64,000 nt of DNA from Polytrichum commune (taxonomy: Eukaryota; Streptophyta; Polytrichopsida; Polytrichales; Polytrichaceae), in NCBI GenBank assembly GCA_950295325.1, contig OX485806.1, positions 6,946,001 to 7,010,000 of the forward strand, written 5' to 3'. Positions 26,698 through 41,835 of this stretch are shown here, piece after piece (the first letter of the stretch is position 1; the number at the start of each line of letters is the position of its first letter). A model generated the notes under the pieces. It searched no databases and was not told where the DNA came from. It saw nothing but the letters and a program-made list of their open reading frames with translations. Both the position numbers and the translations under genes were made by a program.

Positions 26698-28516
26698 CAC
26701 CCTAACCTTGATAATGTCACACCCTCTGTTTCACCAAAAAGTGTGATATAAACAAGGTGTGACATACTTGATAATGTCACATTTTGTGCATAATGTGATA
26801 TTATCAAAAAATATGTAGGAAATCAAAATATAATTACAATTTTTTTTTAAATAACAAATACGAGACTTCAATGTTTTTGAATGTAAAATCTAATTCAAAA
26901 TTGTGAATAACAACAAGAGCACATCATAATGTGTCATTGAGATCAGGTAAAGACCTCTCACTAGAGACAAAGAAGCTTCTAATGTCACATTGTTTTGTTG
27001 ATGTTAAATGTGCAACACCAATTCTAATGAGTTTGTCATGGATTTTTTCCATTTCTAACAACTCATGAGTACTGAAAATTTGAGAACCTTGGCTAGCCAT
27101 AAAATTCAAAACATATTTAGCATATTTTTGTGCATCGCTTAGCTTCACTACTTTAGACTCATCATCACTGCTATCAACAATCAATGGGTCCACTTCCATG
27201 GAATCAAGAACTTGTTCGCCATCTTGTACTAATTGCACAAGCTCCTCAGTAGAAAATTCCACCTCAAAATCATCTTCACCTTCCATGTTTATGTACTCCA
27301 AAAGACAAAGCTTTTCTACAGGCTTGCCTTCAACATCCAAACCCAAATTTAATGCGGGGATGAGTCTACCCAATTCCAAAGTTGCTTCCTCCATTTTGGA
27401 CTTCATACGTTCATCAAGATTGTTTATATCTGCATTCCACTCTGCAGGCAATATGGCGGACTTTCTCCAACAATTTCTAATGGTTTGATCATCTAATTCA
27501 TGCCATGCCGCCACACACCATAGCATAGCTTGAAATACATCAACATTCAATTCCCCAAATCTTCATTTGAGTTGTTATCAATTTGTTGCAAAGTCCAGGC
27601 AACAAGCTTGCGCTTATAACACATTTTGAATGCTGCAATCACTCCTTGATCCAAAGGCTGAACAACTGAAGTCACATTTGGTGGAAGGAACAAGATAGTG
27701 ATATGGGAGAGTACAAAAGCATTAAACCCATCTATAACTTTCTTGACCTCACCATGAATATCATGGCTTCCTGCATTATCCATAATAATGCAAATCTTTC
27801 TGTCTTTCAATGCCATTCTTCGGTTCTCATTCTTCATCCAATGTGTAAAAACATCATCATTCATACAGGCTAAATTGTTAGAATAATAGTGTACTGTCCT
27901 ATTTGGATCAAAATTCCGAGGAAAACATCTGGGACGCGCTGCTTTGTGAATGAAAACAAGCTTCAATCGCTCCTCCCCTGAGATATTAGTGCAAAGCCCC
28001 AATGTCACACGGTCCTTCTTTTTCTTATTTCCTTTCGCCTTCCCAATATTCAAAGTCTTATAAGGAGAGGCTCTATAATACAAACTTGTCTCATCAAAAT
28101 TGAAGATGTCTTCTGGATCATATTTCTTCAATATGAATGGGATCTTTGCCATGGCCAATGCAACTCCAACTCCATCTGCATCTCCACTTTCTCCATGCAG
28201 ATAATTGAAATTACACAAGGCATCCCACTATGCCGAAAGCATTGAATGAGAGCTCATTCAATGACCCCCAATATGCTTTGCTTTAGCCCATGCTCACCCG
28301 TGAACAATAATATCGAACCCATGCCCACCCATACAATCCATCCATACTTGATATTATCACATTTACACTACGGATTTTGAAAAAAAATAGTGACATTATC
28401 AAGGGTGATAGGGATAATAACGAGGGAGTTTTACACTATGAAAATCGGTTTCAAACTTTTAGGTGACAATATCAAGGTGTTCTATTAACAAGGGTGACAT
28501 TATCAAGGTTAGACTG
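26698..28516 (-). mobile_element. pogo/Tigger-type DNA transposon, 1819 bp
   Basis: The left end CACCCTAACCTTGATAATG and reversed right end CAGTCTAACCTTGATAATG form the inverted repeat. A TA flanks each side (26696-26697, 28517-28518), as expected for the Tc1/mariner superfamily. Removing the element rebuilds 'ctgtagtatttcgg', matching 'ttagtatttcag' in the neighbouring repeat units at 33930 and 34130. The motif GTGACATTATCAAGG is repeated inside both ends. It carries a broken transposase on the minus strand. It is too short for a full element, so the N-terminal DNA-binding part has been lost. Confidence 0.9.
26924..28220 (-). pseudogene. Tigger/pogo transposase pseudogene
   Basis: The cut-and-paste DDE nuclease that would move the element is present without its N-terminal helix-turn-helix region. 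The first frame (28218 to 27547) holds 'KLHGESGDAD'-type sequence at its start, then the catalytic-type motifs FNFDETSLYY (D at about residue 42), IIMDNAGSHD (D at 147) and VVQPLDQGVI (D at 190). The second frame (27550 to 26924) continues in the next register with 'FQAMLWCVAAWHEL' and an acidic C-terminal tail, so one single-base frameshift near 27548 splits the gene. I see no plausible start codon: the first frame begins at a TTG, and upstream sequence has stops in all registers. It is probably not functional. Confidence 0.88.
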
Positions 28517-36565: not shown

Positions 36566-37490
36566 CTGCCTAGAGGTCTCAAAGTGTCACATTTATTAAT
36601 TGTCAGTATGATATTGTTCGTCAACATAAGTAACTTTGTAAAGAGAGAAAAAAATTTCATTATGACATTTGGCATAAACACCTTGGGATACTTGAGATGA
36701 TAGTTTGCATTTTGATATGCAAGGGAAAGGTATTATTGAGCATACCAATGGCAAGTGTCACGTGTTTATATTTTAGTATGCAAGAGGAAGATATCCTTGA
36801 GCATACTAATGCCAAGTGTAATATGTGTACACTTTAGTCAACTCGTAGACCATACAAGTGTAACATAAGCATACACCTCATAACACTATTGAACATTTCC
36901 ATGCTAAGATATTAGTAAGCACACTTGAATACCAAATGTCACGAGGTAACACTAATGATGAAGTTCTTGATCCTTAGTGTGACATAGCATAAGCTTCATA
37001 ATAGGGTAAGTGACAGTGTAACACATCTAGCACTAAATACCACAAACGGTGTAAGGTAAGTGCACCAATGACCAAACGCAGCCCACAGACCGCACAAAAA
37101 TTTCATTCATGAGAACTCCCGAGGAAACTTCGGGAACATTCAGGGAATTCGTAGAGAACGTAAACGTACATGTGAAGGTTTTGAGATCCACATGTGTATG
37201 TGTGGATTCAATTTGTGCTAGCTTTCACAAATCAAACTATCTTTTAATTTTATTTATTTGTAGGAGAATCCCCACTTCACAATTAACAATCCTTCAAAAT
37301 TTGAAACGATTTAGGCTTGTAAATTATTATTTACAAGAATTTGAAGATTGACCATGCAGTCATTGGCACACTTACCTTAGTACCCACCACCTCCCATGCC
37401 AAAAATGTTTATAAAAGGAGGAAAATCAATAGATATGTGTCATGATAAAAGCGAAGTATTCCTTGGAAATATGGCACAAGTGTAAAGAAA
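36566..37490. other. no gene seen; repeats of 'gcatactaatgccaagtgt' type
   Basis: Between about 36700 and 36960, several similar phrases such as 'gagcataccaatggcaagtgtcac' and 'gagcatactaatgccaagtgtaat' form a loose tandem array of roughly 75 bp. The short plus-strand frame at 37109-37351 shows no motif. Confidence 0.45.
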
Positions 37491-37499
37491 AGAAAAAGA

Positions 37500-37625
37500 A
37501 AAAATAATGCCAGTGTTTAATACCGGCGTGAATGTGAGCCCGTTGGCCATACACTGATCACGGTATTCCGTGATGCAGTGTATGGTTTTATGCCTCTTGT
37601 GGGGAGGTGGGCTCTAGGGGCACAA
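37500..37625 (-). repeat. LINE 3'-end stem-loop, copy 3 (attached to its LINE)
   Basis: On the minus strand, CCATACACTG pairs perfectly with CAGTGTATGG, enclosing a second stem ATCACGG/CCGTGAT with loop AATA. It follows directly after the ORF's C-terminal coding sequence and the C13 tract. It ends 'GGCCAACGGGCTCAC...', matching the orphan copies at 24812 and 2410. In LINEs, 3' stem-loops of this kind are read by the element's own reverse transcriptase. Confidence 0.7.
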
Positions 37626-37639
37626 GCAAACCATTTTTA

Positions 37640-37883
37640 TTTAGGGGGGGGGGGGGTACGGGTTTTTGTTTGTTGTCTAGTTTTCTTTTATTTAGTACTA
37701 AATAGGTGAGGTATTTGATGGTGTTCTAGTGTATGTTTTTCATAAGGTTTTTGATGTTTGATTTTGGGATGTTTAGTCTTGTGAGGTTTTCAATGGAATG
37801 CTCGTGTATGGCTCCTCTTACTCCTGCCGTGATGGTTATGAGGGGGTTGATTTGCTAGCCGTTATTTCGGATGGTGTTATTTA
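37640..37883 (-). pseudogene. C-terminal end of the LINE endonuclease, beyond the LTR
   Basis: Joining across the LTR, the minus strand continues with a segment ending NNG(stop)QINPL, then ITITAGVRGAIHEHS and a Lys/Asn-rich tail. The 'I..GW......PI..G.RG' pattern is what follows the catalytic core in restriction-like endonucleases of non-LTR elements. The conserved Trp of 'GW' is a TAG here (37855-37857). A C13 tract at 37644-37656 lies at the coding end and would encode prolines. Confidence 0.65.
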
Positions 37884-37888
37884 GTGGG

Positions 37889-39513
37889 TGTGAGCCCAAA
37901 ATGGTGCCCACATGTGGTGATTAACTCTTCGAAACCAATTTTAGTTTGACTTTGATGTGTTATGATTATTCACAAAACATAAAAAGAGTGAAGTGTGGTT
38001 TGGATTTAAGTTTAGGCTTTAGAATGTGTTGTGTGATTATTTCAAGGTTGAATTCAATAAGAGTATGCCTTGATAATGTGAGTAGGGGGTAAGGTGAAGC
38101 AAGGTGAGCTCCGCGGGTTAAATGCCCACTTTTGGATCCACCTTGTTAGTTTAGGAAGAAGGAAGCTTGGTGGAAGGGGATTAGTCCCTACTTTAGAGGT
38201 GAAGGTTAAGGGATTGTGATTGGAGGTGCTAATCCCCTCACCCTATCCTCACCTCTCTCTCCCTCTCTCCCTCTCTCCCTCTTTACTACTTAAGGTGGTT
38301 TCTCTCTCATTTTCCTCTCTCTCCATCAAGTGCTCTCAAGGGAGGAAGCTCTTAAAGAGCTTGAGCCACGTATGTGTGATGTTAGTTTCTAGTGAAGTCA
38401 ATTAGTTAATCTCTTTCTCTCAATGCCTCCCAAGTGAGTGAGCTCTTAGAGCTTGAGATTGCCTAGGAGGATTAGGTAGTTGTTAGTGAAGTTAGTGTGG
38501 TAGATTAGTTCATTAGTTAAGGAGAAAAGAAAAAAGAAGAAGAGATTAGAAAACATTTGATTAGTGGATAAGGTGGCTGTGTTTAAGGGCAGTTTAGGGG
38601 CAGAGTTACCAAGTTCAATTGTTCAACCCAGGCTACGGACTGCAGCTAAGCTGCTGTTACCAGGCTCAGCTGGTTCGACCCAGGCTACATATGCGACTAA
38701 GCTGCTGATACTGGCTCAGCTGGTTCGACCCAGGCTACATATGCGGCTAAGTTGCTGATACTGGCTCAGTTGGTTCGACCCAGGCTACAGTTGCGGCTAA
38801 GCTACTGATACCGGCTCAGTTGGTTCGACCCAGGCTACAGTTGCGGCTAAGCTACTTATACCGGCTCAGTTGGTTCGACCCAGGCTACAGATGCAGCTAA
38901 GCTGCTGGAGGAGGGACAACACCGAGACTGCTGGTCATTAGCCAGCACCGAAAACTAATTGGCGGCAGACTGCACCGAGAGCTGATTAGTGGCAAACCAC
39001 AATTAGGACGTCTAGGGGTTAGCAAGGCTAAGCCCAATTAGTGGTGTTAGCACATTAAAAACTTAATCACATTAGGCCATTTTAGTGGTGGCTAAGTAGT
39101 TAGATTCATTGGGCTAGTTGGTACCACGTGTGGATTTGTATGAGTGTGTTTAACCATTGATAAAAGTGTTTTTCAACACTTGCACCGATCGGTCAAAAAT
39201 AACTCACTTGCGTTATTAATGGAGAATGTGAAGGACTCTTGCAGTGGCAAGAGAAATGGGGTGAAAATCAAAAGAGTGAGGGGAATGTCCGTAAGGGCAT
39301 GTGCGGCTAAAGCCGCGGGTTGGACTCTTGAGAAAGCCAACTCTAGCACTAGCCAAGAGGCCAACATTAATAAAGCATAATGAGTGAGACAATATGTGTT
39401 CATTTGAACATGACAATTACCTTGCACATGGTTCAATATTGTAATAGATAAATGTGATTCTCAAAGTCATCACCCAGACTAGGATGCTAAAGGGTGGTGG
39501 ATTTGGCCTCACA
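37889..39513. mobile_element. solo LTR, 1625 bp, inserted in the LINE
   Basis: It starts TGTGAGCCC and ends GGCCTCACA, so TG/CA ends lie within a perfect 6-bp inverted repeat. A 5-bp GTGGG flanks both sides (37884-37888, 39514-39518). Removing it restores the LINE register (...KYDP then L.NTIRNNG...). No part of its start recurs near its end, so it is a single LTR rather than a complete small element. Inside are a CT-rich tract (38250-38283), a 50-bp tandem repeat, and an AATAAA at about 39368, compatible with promoter and polyadenylation parts of an LTR. Confidence 0.82.
38607..38912 (+). repeat. 50-bp tandem repeat within the LTR, about 6 copies
   Basis: The unit includes 'ggctcagttggttcgaccca' and 'ggctacagttgcggctaagc'. 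Copies differ at a few positions. The first block resembles a tRNA A-box (GGCTCAGTTGG) directly followed by a B-box-like GGTTCGACCC. Spacing is wrong for a real tRNA promoter, so this may be chance. Confidence 0.85.
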
Positions 39514-39518
39514 GTGGG

Positions 39519-39722
39519 TCATATTTGGCGTGCTTGTGTGTGATGGCTTGTTCCGGAAATCTGTCGTGGCAGTATGTGAATTCAATGAATTGGATCGTGT
39601 GTTTGGGTGATGGTGATATAGGTGGTTGTGTTTGTTTTGGGGCTCCTATTACGCATAGGATGTCTGGTCTTAGTTTGGCTTGACATTGGCATGGATTTGG
39701 GTGGCAAGTGCAGTGGAGTAGC
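39519..39722 (-). pseudogene. LINE Cys-rich linker and restriction-like endonuclease core
   Basis: In the shifted register the minus strand reads CTCHPNPCQC, then LRPDILCV (about 39648-39672), a spacer of about 25 residues, and IQFIEFTYCHDRF (about 39568-39597), then '..KH.KYDP' at the LTR junction. An R-PD, E-x-T/K and K..KY order is the PD-(D/E)XK pattern of restriction-like endonucleases in R2-, Utopia- and Dualen-type elements, which nick target DNA. The assignment is by motif order only. The gene is broken by a frameshift and the LTR. Confidence 0.6.
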
Positions 39723-39799
39723 CATCCGGTATTGTTTGTTCTTGGGGCTGGTTATGGAAGTGGCCTGCATTTGTCAATGTAAAGAATCTGGTATTTTTG

Positions 39800-40710
39800 T
39801 TGGCTTGTAACGTTTGGGTAATGAGATGGACTGCTTTATTATGTCGTGCGATTGTGAGTCCTTTAAGGAATGGGTGTTCACATGTGGATAGCAAGTGGAG
39901 CCACGTGTCACGTTCATTTTTATGGCATAGTGTGCAGTTGGGATTTTGGTGTGTGATGGGCCAGAATATGTTTTTCCTATGGTTGCCCATGTATTGAGCG
40001 TATCTGAATTTGAGTGTTTGGGTGATTTGGGTATCCGGGATTTTCTCGTCTTGCCAAAAGTGGTTGGAGAGTTTCTACTTTATTTGGGTATTAGATAGCC
40101 ATTTGTCTACGTATGGGAATTTAGGTTTGGCTAGGTTTGTTTCATTGTTTCCATGTTCTTTTGTTATGAATGTGCGTAGATTGCGGATGGCCCCGTCATG
40201 TGTGGATGTTGGGCAGCTGGCTAGCCAGTATGGGGTCGGGTGGGCAATGTGTATACGTGGGGTGGCCGCTAGCTTTTCTTTGGTTGTCCCTTCATTTGCT
40301 AGGTCATCTGCTAGTTCATTCCCGGTGATGCATGTGTGGGCCCTTACTTTATGTATATGGACTTTATGTGGGGTCCAATATATTTGTTGTACTATTGCAA
40401 CTATGAGTAGTTTGTCTGGGTGGTGGTGTTGTGATGTTGGGTGGTGGATGTGGTTGTTAATTAAGTATTTGCTATTAAGGCTATCTGTAAATATGTGTGT
40501 GTCTATTTGGGTGGTTTGTATATTTTTGACTGCGATGAGTATTGCGTTTAGTTCGGCTCTAAGTATGTTTTGGTAGCCTAGTAGTCTTTCTGAGATTTTT
40601 GTGTTGTTATTGGGATTGTATACTCATGAGCCTGCAGTGTTTCCTTCTATTTGGCCTTCGGAGTTTTTGGTTGGGGGGATGAATGATCCATTTGTGTATG
40701 TGCATTGTTG
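39800..40710 (-). pseudogene. LINE RNase H domain and zinc knuckle
   Basis: RNase H removes the RNA template during reverse transcription. The order of conserved pieces is TYTNGSF (40684-40704), RAELNAI (40541-40561), IFTDSLNS (40471-40494) and RAHTCITGNELADDLAN (about 40290-40345), i.e. the D, E, D and H/D positions of the type I fold. The first Asp is Asn here (TNGS for TDGS), which alone would disable catalysis. An in-frame TGA (40624-40626) replaces a Gly and a TAG (40075-40077) a Trp. Downstream, CTLCHKNERDTWLHLLSTCEH (39874-39938) supplies a C-x2-C...H...C knuckle as in many LINE C-termini. Confidence 0.8.
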
Positions 40711-40849
40711 TGGATGGAATTTAAGTGGGTATGTGTGCTTGAATGTGTTTGGTAGGGGTATTATATTGTTGTTTATGATTTGGGTAGTGTTGATTTTTGG
40801 GGCGCTTTTCCATGCGTTGGAGAATTTAACATTGTAGTGTGTGGATGTA

Positions 40850-41835
40850 GGTTTAATGGGGTGGATGTCTATATGTGTGTTTGTTGTGTGCTTGGGTATT
40901 TTTTGTAATTCAATTGGTATTTGGGTATTTTTTGGTATGGTTTCTTGGTTGTGTACGCAGATGATTGATGTAAGGGATGGTTCAGTGTATTGGTAGTATT
41001 TTGGCCACTCTAGTGTGGGGTTGTATTGTATGGTATGTGGTGGTATTGTGGCTAGTATGTGTATGTCGGGGTTCGTGAGTGGTAGTTGTTGTGGTGTCTA
41101 GTCCTTGTGGTTTATTATTAGAATAGTGGTTGTTTGAGCGTCTTCTTTAGTGGCCATTCTAGCCCAATGGAGGGCTTCTAATGTTGTATTGTGGTCCGTG
41201 GGGAATGCTAGGCCGTGTCGTGTCCATCTAGCTGAATTTGTTTTTCCCATTGATCCAAATATTATATCTCGAGCATGTGGTGAGTTATATTGGGTGAGTT
41301 GGGTGGGACAAGTAAGGGGGGATGAGTAGTACGAGTGTGTGATTTGAAAGGATTTTATCAGTGTTTTGGTAATTTCGGGGTGTAGCGTTTGGTGTAGGTT
41401 GTTTGGGTGGATAGTTTTTGGCTTTTTCTTGGGAAGTATAGTTATATATCTTTGGAGAAGCCATAGAATTTCTGTTTCAAAATCTTGTGGGGGTGGTTGT
41501 AGGAAATTAGTTAGGTGTTGAAGGGTATTATGAGAGAATTGGTTCCAAAGCCAGTGTAGTCTTTCGATGGTAAGGGTAGCTATGTAGTTTCCTTTTTGGT
41601 CGTATATATTGGCTTCTGATGCATGTGTTTTTATGGTGGGTTTGTTGGTTAAGATGTCTTTGTCTGGGTTACATTCTTGAATGCTTAGTGTGAGGTTGGT
41701 GATTTTTAGTGGTGGGTGTATGAACTTGGTGTCTTTTGTTTGGGTATGGGTAAGGTAATTGGCATATGCGTTAGTGGTTTTTTGTGCTTGCACTAGCGTT
41801 AAGGGGAAGCTTTCTTGAAAGTATAAGAGTTTCAT
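40850..41835 (-). pseudogene. LINE PCIF1-like adenine methyltransferase region
   Basis: The frame from 41835 runs 245 codons to a TAG at 41098 and then continues in the same register towards RNase H. Ordered motifs resemble the catalytic domain of PCIF1/CAPAM-type adenine N6-methyltransferases: EILWLLQRY (residues 122-130), a helix, SYYSSPLTCP (168-177, compare the family's 'E.FASPLN'), then RDIIFGSMG (189-197, compare 'D..FGS.G'), a hydrophobic strand at TILIINHKDW, and 'IHILATIPPHTIQY' after the stop (compare 'H.LILPA..H.Y'). The catalytic NPPF-like position reads AFPT (210-213), so this copy should be inactive. Which part of the element's life cycle it served is unknown. Confidence 0.6.

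Follow-up and report, generated by a model that had tools for sequence, protein, structure and literature searches.

A PCIF1-related domain with a replaced catalytic asparagine in the ORF2 protein of a Dualen/RandI-like LINE from a land plant

The genome of a land plant, probably a moss, harbours hundreds of copies of a LINE that carries, between the reverse transcriptase (RT) and the RNase H of its ORF2 protein, a domain that sequence comparisons establish as a homologue of PCIF1, the cap-specific m6Am methyltransferase that acts on mRNA in animals. The catalytic asparagine of that family is replaced in every copy read. On balance we consider it probable that a PCIF1-family domain was captured, lost catalysis early and has stayed in the retrotransposition protein as a part that has no catalytic role and probably binds nucleic acid. 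In outline, a single capture into ORF2 would have preceded the split of the two subfamilies described below, N6-adenine methylation would have been lost early in the captured domain, and the domain would then have been retained as a nucleic-acid-binding module within the linker from RT to RNase H. The relatives compared are sequences of one genome of 407.8 Mb in 64 contigs, seven of which (C1-C7) total about 406 Mb.

The copy in the window

The window, by which we mean the whole stretch of 64,000 nucleotides analysed, contains a broken copy of this high-copy non-LTR retrotransposon (Table 1). An earlier note, made from the letters alone, had placed a LINE with a PCIF1-like adenine methyltransferase region at positions 40850-41835; the feature is indeed there, but the element runs from about 41790 to about 37482. 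The peptides named in that note were all found on the minus strand, in the order given, upstream of RNase H and in its register: EILWLLQRY, SYYSSPLTCP, RDIIFGSMG and NHKD, then an in-frame stop and IHILATIPPHTIQY, which lies beyond the PCIF1-like open frame in the same register, after that one stop. From the PCIF1-like frame to the RNase H frame (40075-40623) the register is unchanged, with two in-frame stops between them. The start of the copy near 41790 reflects 5′ truncation, and its ORF2 could be followed to 39512 and resumes at about 37878, past the insert. No target-site duplication was seen by eye in the flanks of the copy. It is dead because of the two in-frame stops, the frame change near 39724, the 5′ truncation and the insert.

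Within the insert lies a 50-bp tandem array of 5.7 copies (38621-38907). Elsewhere in the window, frames on the minus strand at 26924-28227 look by eye like those of a DDE transposase of Tigger/pogo-like type.

Table 1. Parts of the LINE copy in the window, with positions counted from the first letter of the window.
Feature	Position	Strand	Evidence and remarks
LINE copy, 5′-truncated and interrupted	37482-41790 (ends approximate)	minus	tblastn/blastn with intact relative L076 and close relatives L067-L070; 3′ end inspected
Open frame with PCIF1-like domain, 246 codons	41098-41838	minus	first 13-17 codons are flank, outside the element
Pfam PF12237 (PCIF1_WW) match, frame residues 114-203	41230-41499	minus	E 1.3e-8, 35.1 bits
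AFPTD, at the place of the PCIF1 catalytic loop A-NPPF	41194-41208	minus
RNase H domain, in register with the PCIF1-like frame	40288-40602	minus	Pfam RNase_H (hmmscan), E 2.1e-12
C-terminal CCHC and PD..(E)xT restriction-like-endonuclease-like region	39512-40074	minus	frame change near 39724; endonuclease reading weakly supported
Insert breaking the LINE, about 1.6 kb	37880-39511 (ends approximate)	not assigned
3′ end of LINE ORF2, past the insert	37648-37878	minus	tblastn/blastn with relatives
3′ RNA structure and T/C-rich tail	37482-37614	minus	resembles the structure of 16 other copies

Homology of the domain to PCIF1

Membership of the PCIF1 family, which the earlier note had proposed from motifs, was borne out by profile searches. 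When the PCIF1-like frame of the window was compared with Pfam-A by hmmscan, PF12237 was the only family at E≤10, and its score exceeded the cut-off of 31.1 bits. Despite its name, the PCIF1_WW family is described as a CAPAM-like methyltransferase and not a WW domain (PMC7641849, in excerpt). Relatives in the same genome gave 47.0 bits (L001), 41.6 bits (L002), 39.4 bits (L005) and, below the cut-off, 26.7 bits (L076). All 34 aligned members matched PF12237 at E≤0.1, with any other family matched by at most two of them. Against the PDB, a phmmer search with L001 hit nothing but PCIF1 at E≤10, in two distinct chains (6irv, 3.1e-4; 6irx, 2.7e-3), and a profile of the 34 sequences returned the same two chains (6irx, 0.0011; 6irv, 0.14).

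Columns invariant among the 34 members include W172, Q203-R204-Y205, Y240, P244, C247, D261, F264, G265 and G268. FGSxG, which we take to be the SAM motif, is nearly unchanged, its F, G and G being invariant. That the match arose by chance or from convergent low complexity is scarcely credible: despite the abundance of T, N, H and P in these proteins, one Pfam family is hit by every member, the independent search of the PDB yields PCIF1 only, and the order of the motifs is preserved.

Pfam scans of the entire ORF2 frames of L001, L002 and L076 found no WW domain, and there was no sequence match to the helical cap-binding domain of PCIF1 upstream of the PF12237 part. A chromodomain-like stretch noticed by eye upstream of the PCIF1-like domain gained no support from profile searches.

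The LINE family

The PF12237 profile gave 697 first-look candidates in the genome, and all 150 that were scored matched at E≤0.001, in frames of up to 2,924 aa; with the window frame as the query there were 2,362 first-look candidates, and again all 150 scored matched, at 53-100% identity. Exact patterns of the 3′ end occurred 181 and 404 times, against 0 for the controls. No relatives of the LINE were confirmed in viral contigs or prokaryote genomes.

One broken copy occurs four times within 0.7 Mb (G000 C6:30013687-30679201), three times with equal and once with nearly equal score, which suggests segmental duplication. The genome also has fourteen light-harvesting (PF00504) genes of the same score within 95 kb (G000 C5:1751760-1846160). 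The nearest chain to one of its LHCII genes is 9vfj_2, of 620 residues, which it matches in two stretches; next come the LHCII chains 8htu and 7xqp, which are from moss.

Intact relatives share the order 2A-like motif, APE, RT, PCIF1-like domain, RNase H, CCHC and a putative restriction-like endonuclease. The earlier reading of the element as a LINE holds, and in the intact copies L001 and L076 the RT, the PCIF1-like domain and RNase H occupy one frame. In L001 (2,919 aa), Pfam matches place APE at residues 801-965 (Exo_endo_phos, 1.3e-5), RT at 1418-1681, PCIF1_WW at 2171-2299 and RNase H at 2434-2577. L002 (2,924 aa) has RT, PCIF1_WW and RNase H; its APE region gave no Pfam APE match at E≤0.1 despite aligning with that of L001 at 69% identity. 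L076 (2,422 aa), which belongs to the subfamily of the window copy, has APE (Exo_endo_phos_2, 1.1e-7), RT (3.6e-26), RNase H and, below the cut-off, PCIF1_WW (4.7e-6). The 2A-like motif GDI.xNPGP stands ahead of the APE in all six loci inspected, two of which are near-duplicates; it is found at about residue 577 in L001:82-8838 and at about residue 172 of ORF2 in L076, where it precedes the first Met. An upstream ORF1 is common to L076 and L004 (30% identity, E 5e-56) and had no significant match in Pfam.

Among solved structures, the nearest to the RT were the R2 chains 9nl2, 9nl3 and 9dou (7e-34 to 4.8e-30), followed by L1 (2.6e-19) and, below L1, R2Bm (2.5e-17). In the last approximately 330 residues of the protein, C..C, H....C, RHNK, PD and EFTY are kept in all six sequences compared. 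This C-terminal region matched nothing in Pfam above the cut-off, and its profile matched only two R2Bm chains in the PDB, over the CCHC/RHNK part and at E 3, which is not significant alone. The combination of an APE with a PD-(D/E)xK-type C-terminus is given as a mark of Dualen/RandI elements (PMC3636483 and PMC4640811, in excerpt). By its architecture, rather than by an RT tree with Dualen references, and with a weakly supported endonuclease, the LINE appears Dualen/RandI-like.

A 3′ end was obtained for 20 of the 23 loci searched (L104, L105 and L108 gave none). Sixteen of these 20, a set that omits the near-duplicates L003, L006, L094 and L095, have an outer stem round two hairpins, ATTCA[C/T], a terminal CCGG hairpin and a tail, and they come from both subfamilies. 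The consensus structure of the 16 copies comprises 21 pairs, 14 of which show at least one double change, and the folding-energy z-scores range from -1.9 to -8.1, negative in every copy. The structure of L099 folds less well and its tail is a run of T, and the 3′ end of the window copy folds like those of the other copies. The tails of most of the 20 consist of CTAT, TTC or T(n)C repeats. Both subfamilies, then, end in a covarying RNA structure with mostly short-repeat tails, and this structure is probably what the RT binds. By eye, part of the 3′ UTR (L001:8838-9200 and the matching part of L002 and L004) looks like an antisense tRNA-like stretch with the reversed B-box-like sequence GGTTCGATTCC; ARAGORN found no tRNA gene in the 3′ UTR of four loci.

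Replacement of the catalytic loop

In PCIF1 the catalytic loop reads A-N-P-P-F, and N553/F556 mutants (APPA, SPPG) are inactive (PMC10544176, in excerpt). We read the corresponding loop of the LINE from a profile alignment of L001-L086, L090-L093, L121, L122 and the window, in which all 93 sequences could be aligned; since L090 and L007 are the same copy, these amount to 92 distinct places, 91 of them loci and one the window, which are not a random sample because the loci were chosen mostly by score. At the place of the Asn there is His in 74, Phe in 14, Tyr in 4 and Asn in none. The first Pro is kept in 91 of the 92 (Ala in L093), as is the preceding Ala (Gly in L031). The place of the catalytic Phe holds Asn in 55, Asp in 19, Thr in 17 and Tyr in one, so that the Phe is replaced everywhere and an aromatic residue occurs only in L083, a copy with stops. 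Active N6-adenine methyltransferases have an [N/D/S]PP[F/Y/W] motif, and this motif does not occur in the LINE domain at any of the 92 places.

A genome-wide search for the pattern G-x-A-H-P-H-N gave 260 exact hits against one for the reversed control, and NPP[F/Y] gave 132 against 6. Among the 100 hits listed of these 132, 91 are variants of one 21-mer, which in the copies inspected lies antisense in another retrotransposon. We examined 12 NPP[F/Y] sites in 11 loci (L110-L120), namely three of the 21-mer repeat and all nine others among the 100 hits listed, and none matched the profile of the LINE domain.

These results divide what the earlier note had proposed. The domain does belong to the PCIF1 family, and FGSxG persists almost unchanged in the 34 members. 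The Asn of NPPF is absent from all 92 places, frames of 2,400-2,900 aa among them, and the suggestion of an active adenine methyltransferase is not supported. Nor does AFPT mark a dead copy, as had been supposed: because Asn is absent throughout, AFPT represents the family state rather than decay of the window copy, and is usual in its subfamily, the copy being dead from other damage. With one genome compared, an ancestral or foreign version of the domain may have NPPF.

Selection on the domain and its possible role

The domain is under purifying selection, and its dN/dS lies within roughly twofold of the values for the enzymes beside it. In L002-L004, the one pair in which most regions are free of synonymous saturation, the ratio is 0.10 for the PCIF1-like domain, 0.07 for APE, 0.05 for both RT and RNase H (half the value of the domain), 0.13 for the RLE-like region and 0.52 for the N-terminal region ahead of the 2A-like motif. 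In the remaining pairs dS is at least 1 or could not be computed, and the dN/dS of the domain, where computable, is 0.09-0.29. Between the subfamilies the domain is 47% identical (L001 against L076).

Binding of the element RNA, perhaps at its capped 5′ end, is the putative role that we favour. The position of the domain would be the one at which R2-like proteins deal with template RNA and target DNA, and the domain would most likely help to hold the element RNA during target-primed reverse transcription; what it holds could be the 5′ end of that RNA, as PCIF1 binds capped 5′ ends. It may also still hold SAM, to judge by the invariant F, G and G of FGSxG. Behind RNA binding we rank SAM-dependent regulation or a scaffold, and as less likely again an enzyme that is still active through an altered loop.

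A narrower proposal, which we offer tentatively and regard as unlikely, is that the domain acts as a non-catalytic reader of the 5′ end of its own RNA, the polyprotein gripping both ends of the template, with the RT at the structured 3′ end. If true, such a reader would help to select full-length, capped element RNA and to complete insertion. Little is understood of the way in which LINEs recognise their RNA at its 5′ end and complete the second strand, and a LINE that retains a domain of a cap-methyltransferase family, with the catalytic residues gone, offers a direct test of whether recognition of the RNA 5′ end belongs to retrotransposition.

Equally doubtful, in our estimate, is a role as a SAM-binding sensor or protein-protein scaffold that makes no contact with nucleic acid. 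The invariance of F, G and G in FGSxG while the catalytic loop changed would suit it, and many pseudo-methyltransferases do work as partners, METTL14 being an example, but no partner is known here and the position between RT and RNase H would favour contact with nucleic acid.

Still less probable is a methyltransferase that remains active with an unusual loop (HPPN, HPHN, FPTD) and marks the RNA or cDNA of the element, whether at adenine or at another atom. Conservation of FGSxG and of parts of the active-site loop YxSSPxTC, the purifying selection described above and the retention of the first Pro in nearly all places are what one would expect of an enzyme; the complete absence of Asn, the inactivity of PCIF1 with changes at N553/F556 and the variability, within the family, of the second Pro and of the last position of the loop, which would be odd for a new active site, all speak against it. 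A passenger remnant in neutral decay, to which the lost catalytic motif might point, is very improbable given an open frame whose dN/dS is close to those of APE and the RLE-like region, and about double the RT and RNase H values, and given the identity that persists between subfamilies.

Comparison with known systems

Retrotransposons are already known to have captured methyltransferases (PMC5890265 and PMC6338049, in excerpt). PCIF1 would join the enzymes so captured, in a genome where the search made here found no ordinary PCIF1 gene: with a PCIF1 fragment as the query there were 131 matches at E≤1, the strongest at 1.8e-4, and the seven checked individually (L001, L090-L093, L121 and L122, with L090 the same copy as L007) are LINE copies. 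PCIF1 is described as restricted to eukaryotes (PMC8868631, in excerpt). Titles and opening lines of abstracts among the matches listed from the openly accessible literature contain no report of a PCIF1 domain in a LINE.

The domain resembles PCIF1/CAPAM (PF12237; 6irv, 6irx) in the order LW..QRY, Y.SSP.TC and D..FGS.G and in having A-x-P at the place of NPPF, and differs in lying inside a LINE ORF2, in the replaced catalytic Asn and in the absence of a detected WW domain. The LINE itself is like Dualen/RandI in having an APE, RT, RNase H and a putative PD-(D/E)xK-like C-terminus, and mostly short-repeat tails rather than poly(A); for green-algal RandI, eight tabulated families have tail repeats other than (A)n (PMC3747384, in excerpt). 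It is unlike them in its land-plant host and in the PCIF1-like domain, of which the excerpts of PMC4640811, PMC3747384, PMC8226300 and PMC3636483 on Dualen/RandI make no mention.

Captured methyltransferases are carried by SymbioLINE-Dnmt, SymbioDIRS-Dnmt3 and KnitGypsy-Dnmt3, the last reported to be under purifying selection (PMC5890265, in excerpt); these are C5-cytosine enzymes, whereas the LINE domain is of the PCIF1 family. The same excerpt names DIRS elements with a Dam-like adenine methylase, which likewise place a domain of adenine-methyltransferase type in a retrotransposon, although theirs is Dam-like and in DIRS, and ours is PCIF1-like and in a LINE. In the genome compared here there is, separately, an LTR-retrotransposon-like frame (L111:99-2576, minus strand, at G000 C2:25327650-25330650; also L110) with a C5-cytosine DNA methylase match above the cut-off (PF00145, E 7.4e-6) and aspartyl protease and zinc-knuckle matches, both below it. 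The 21-mer behind most of the NPP[F/Y] hits lies antisense in this element, which resembles KnitGypsy-Dnmt3 of Klebsormidium as excerpted from PMC5890265, but is from a land plant.

TRAS LINEs of insects carry a viral SF1 helicase (PMC6338049, in excerpt) and are another case in which a LINE protein gained a foreign enzyme of nucleic-acid metabolism, there a helicase. The choanoflagellate eTudor/DCD proteins with a fused CAPAM-like methyltransferase (PMC7641849, in excerpt) similarly hold such a module within a larger protein, which there is a host protein and not a retrotransposon's. The catalytically dead yet useful Pcif1 of Drosophila (Franco et al. 2023, as cited in PMC10544176, in excerpt) is a PCIF1 homologue kept without catalysis, as the LINE domain appears to be, but it is the product of a host gene, whereas the domain described here belongs to a transposon.
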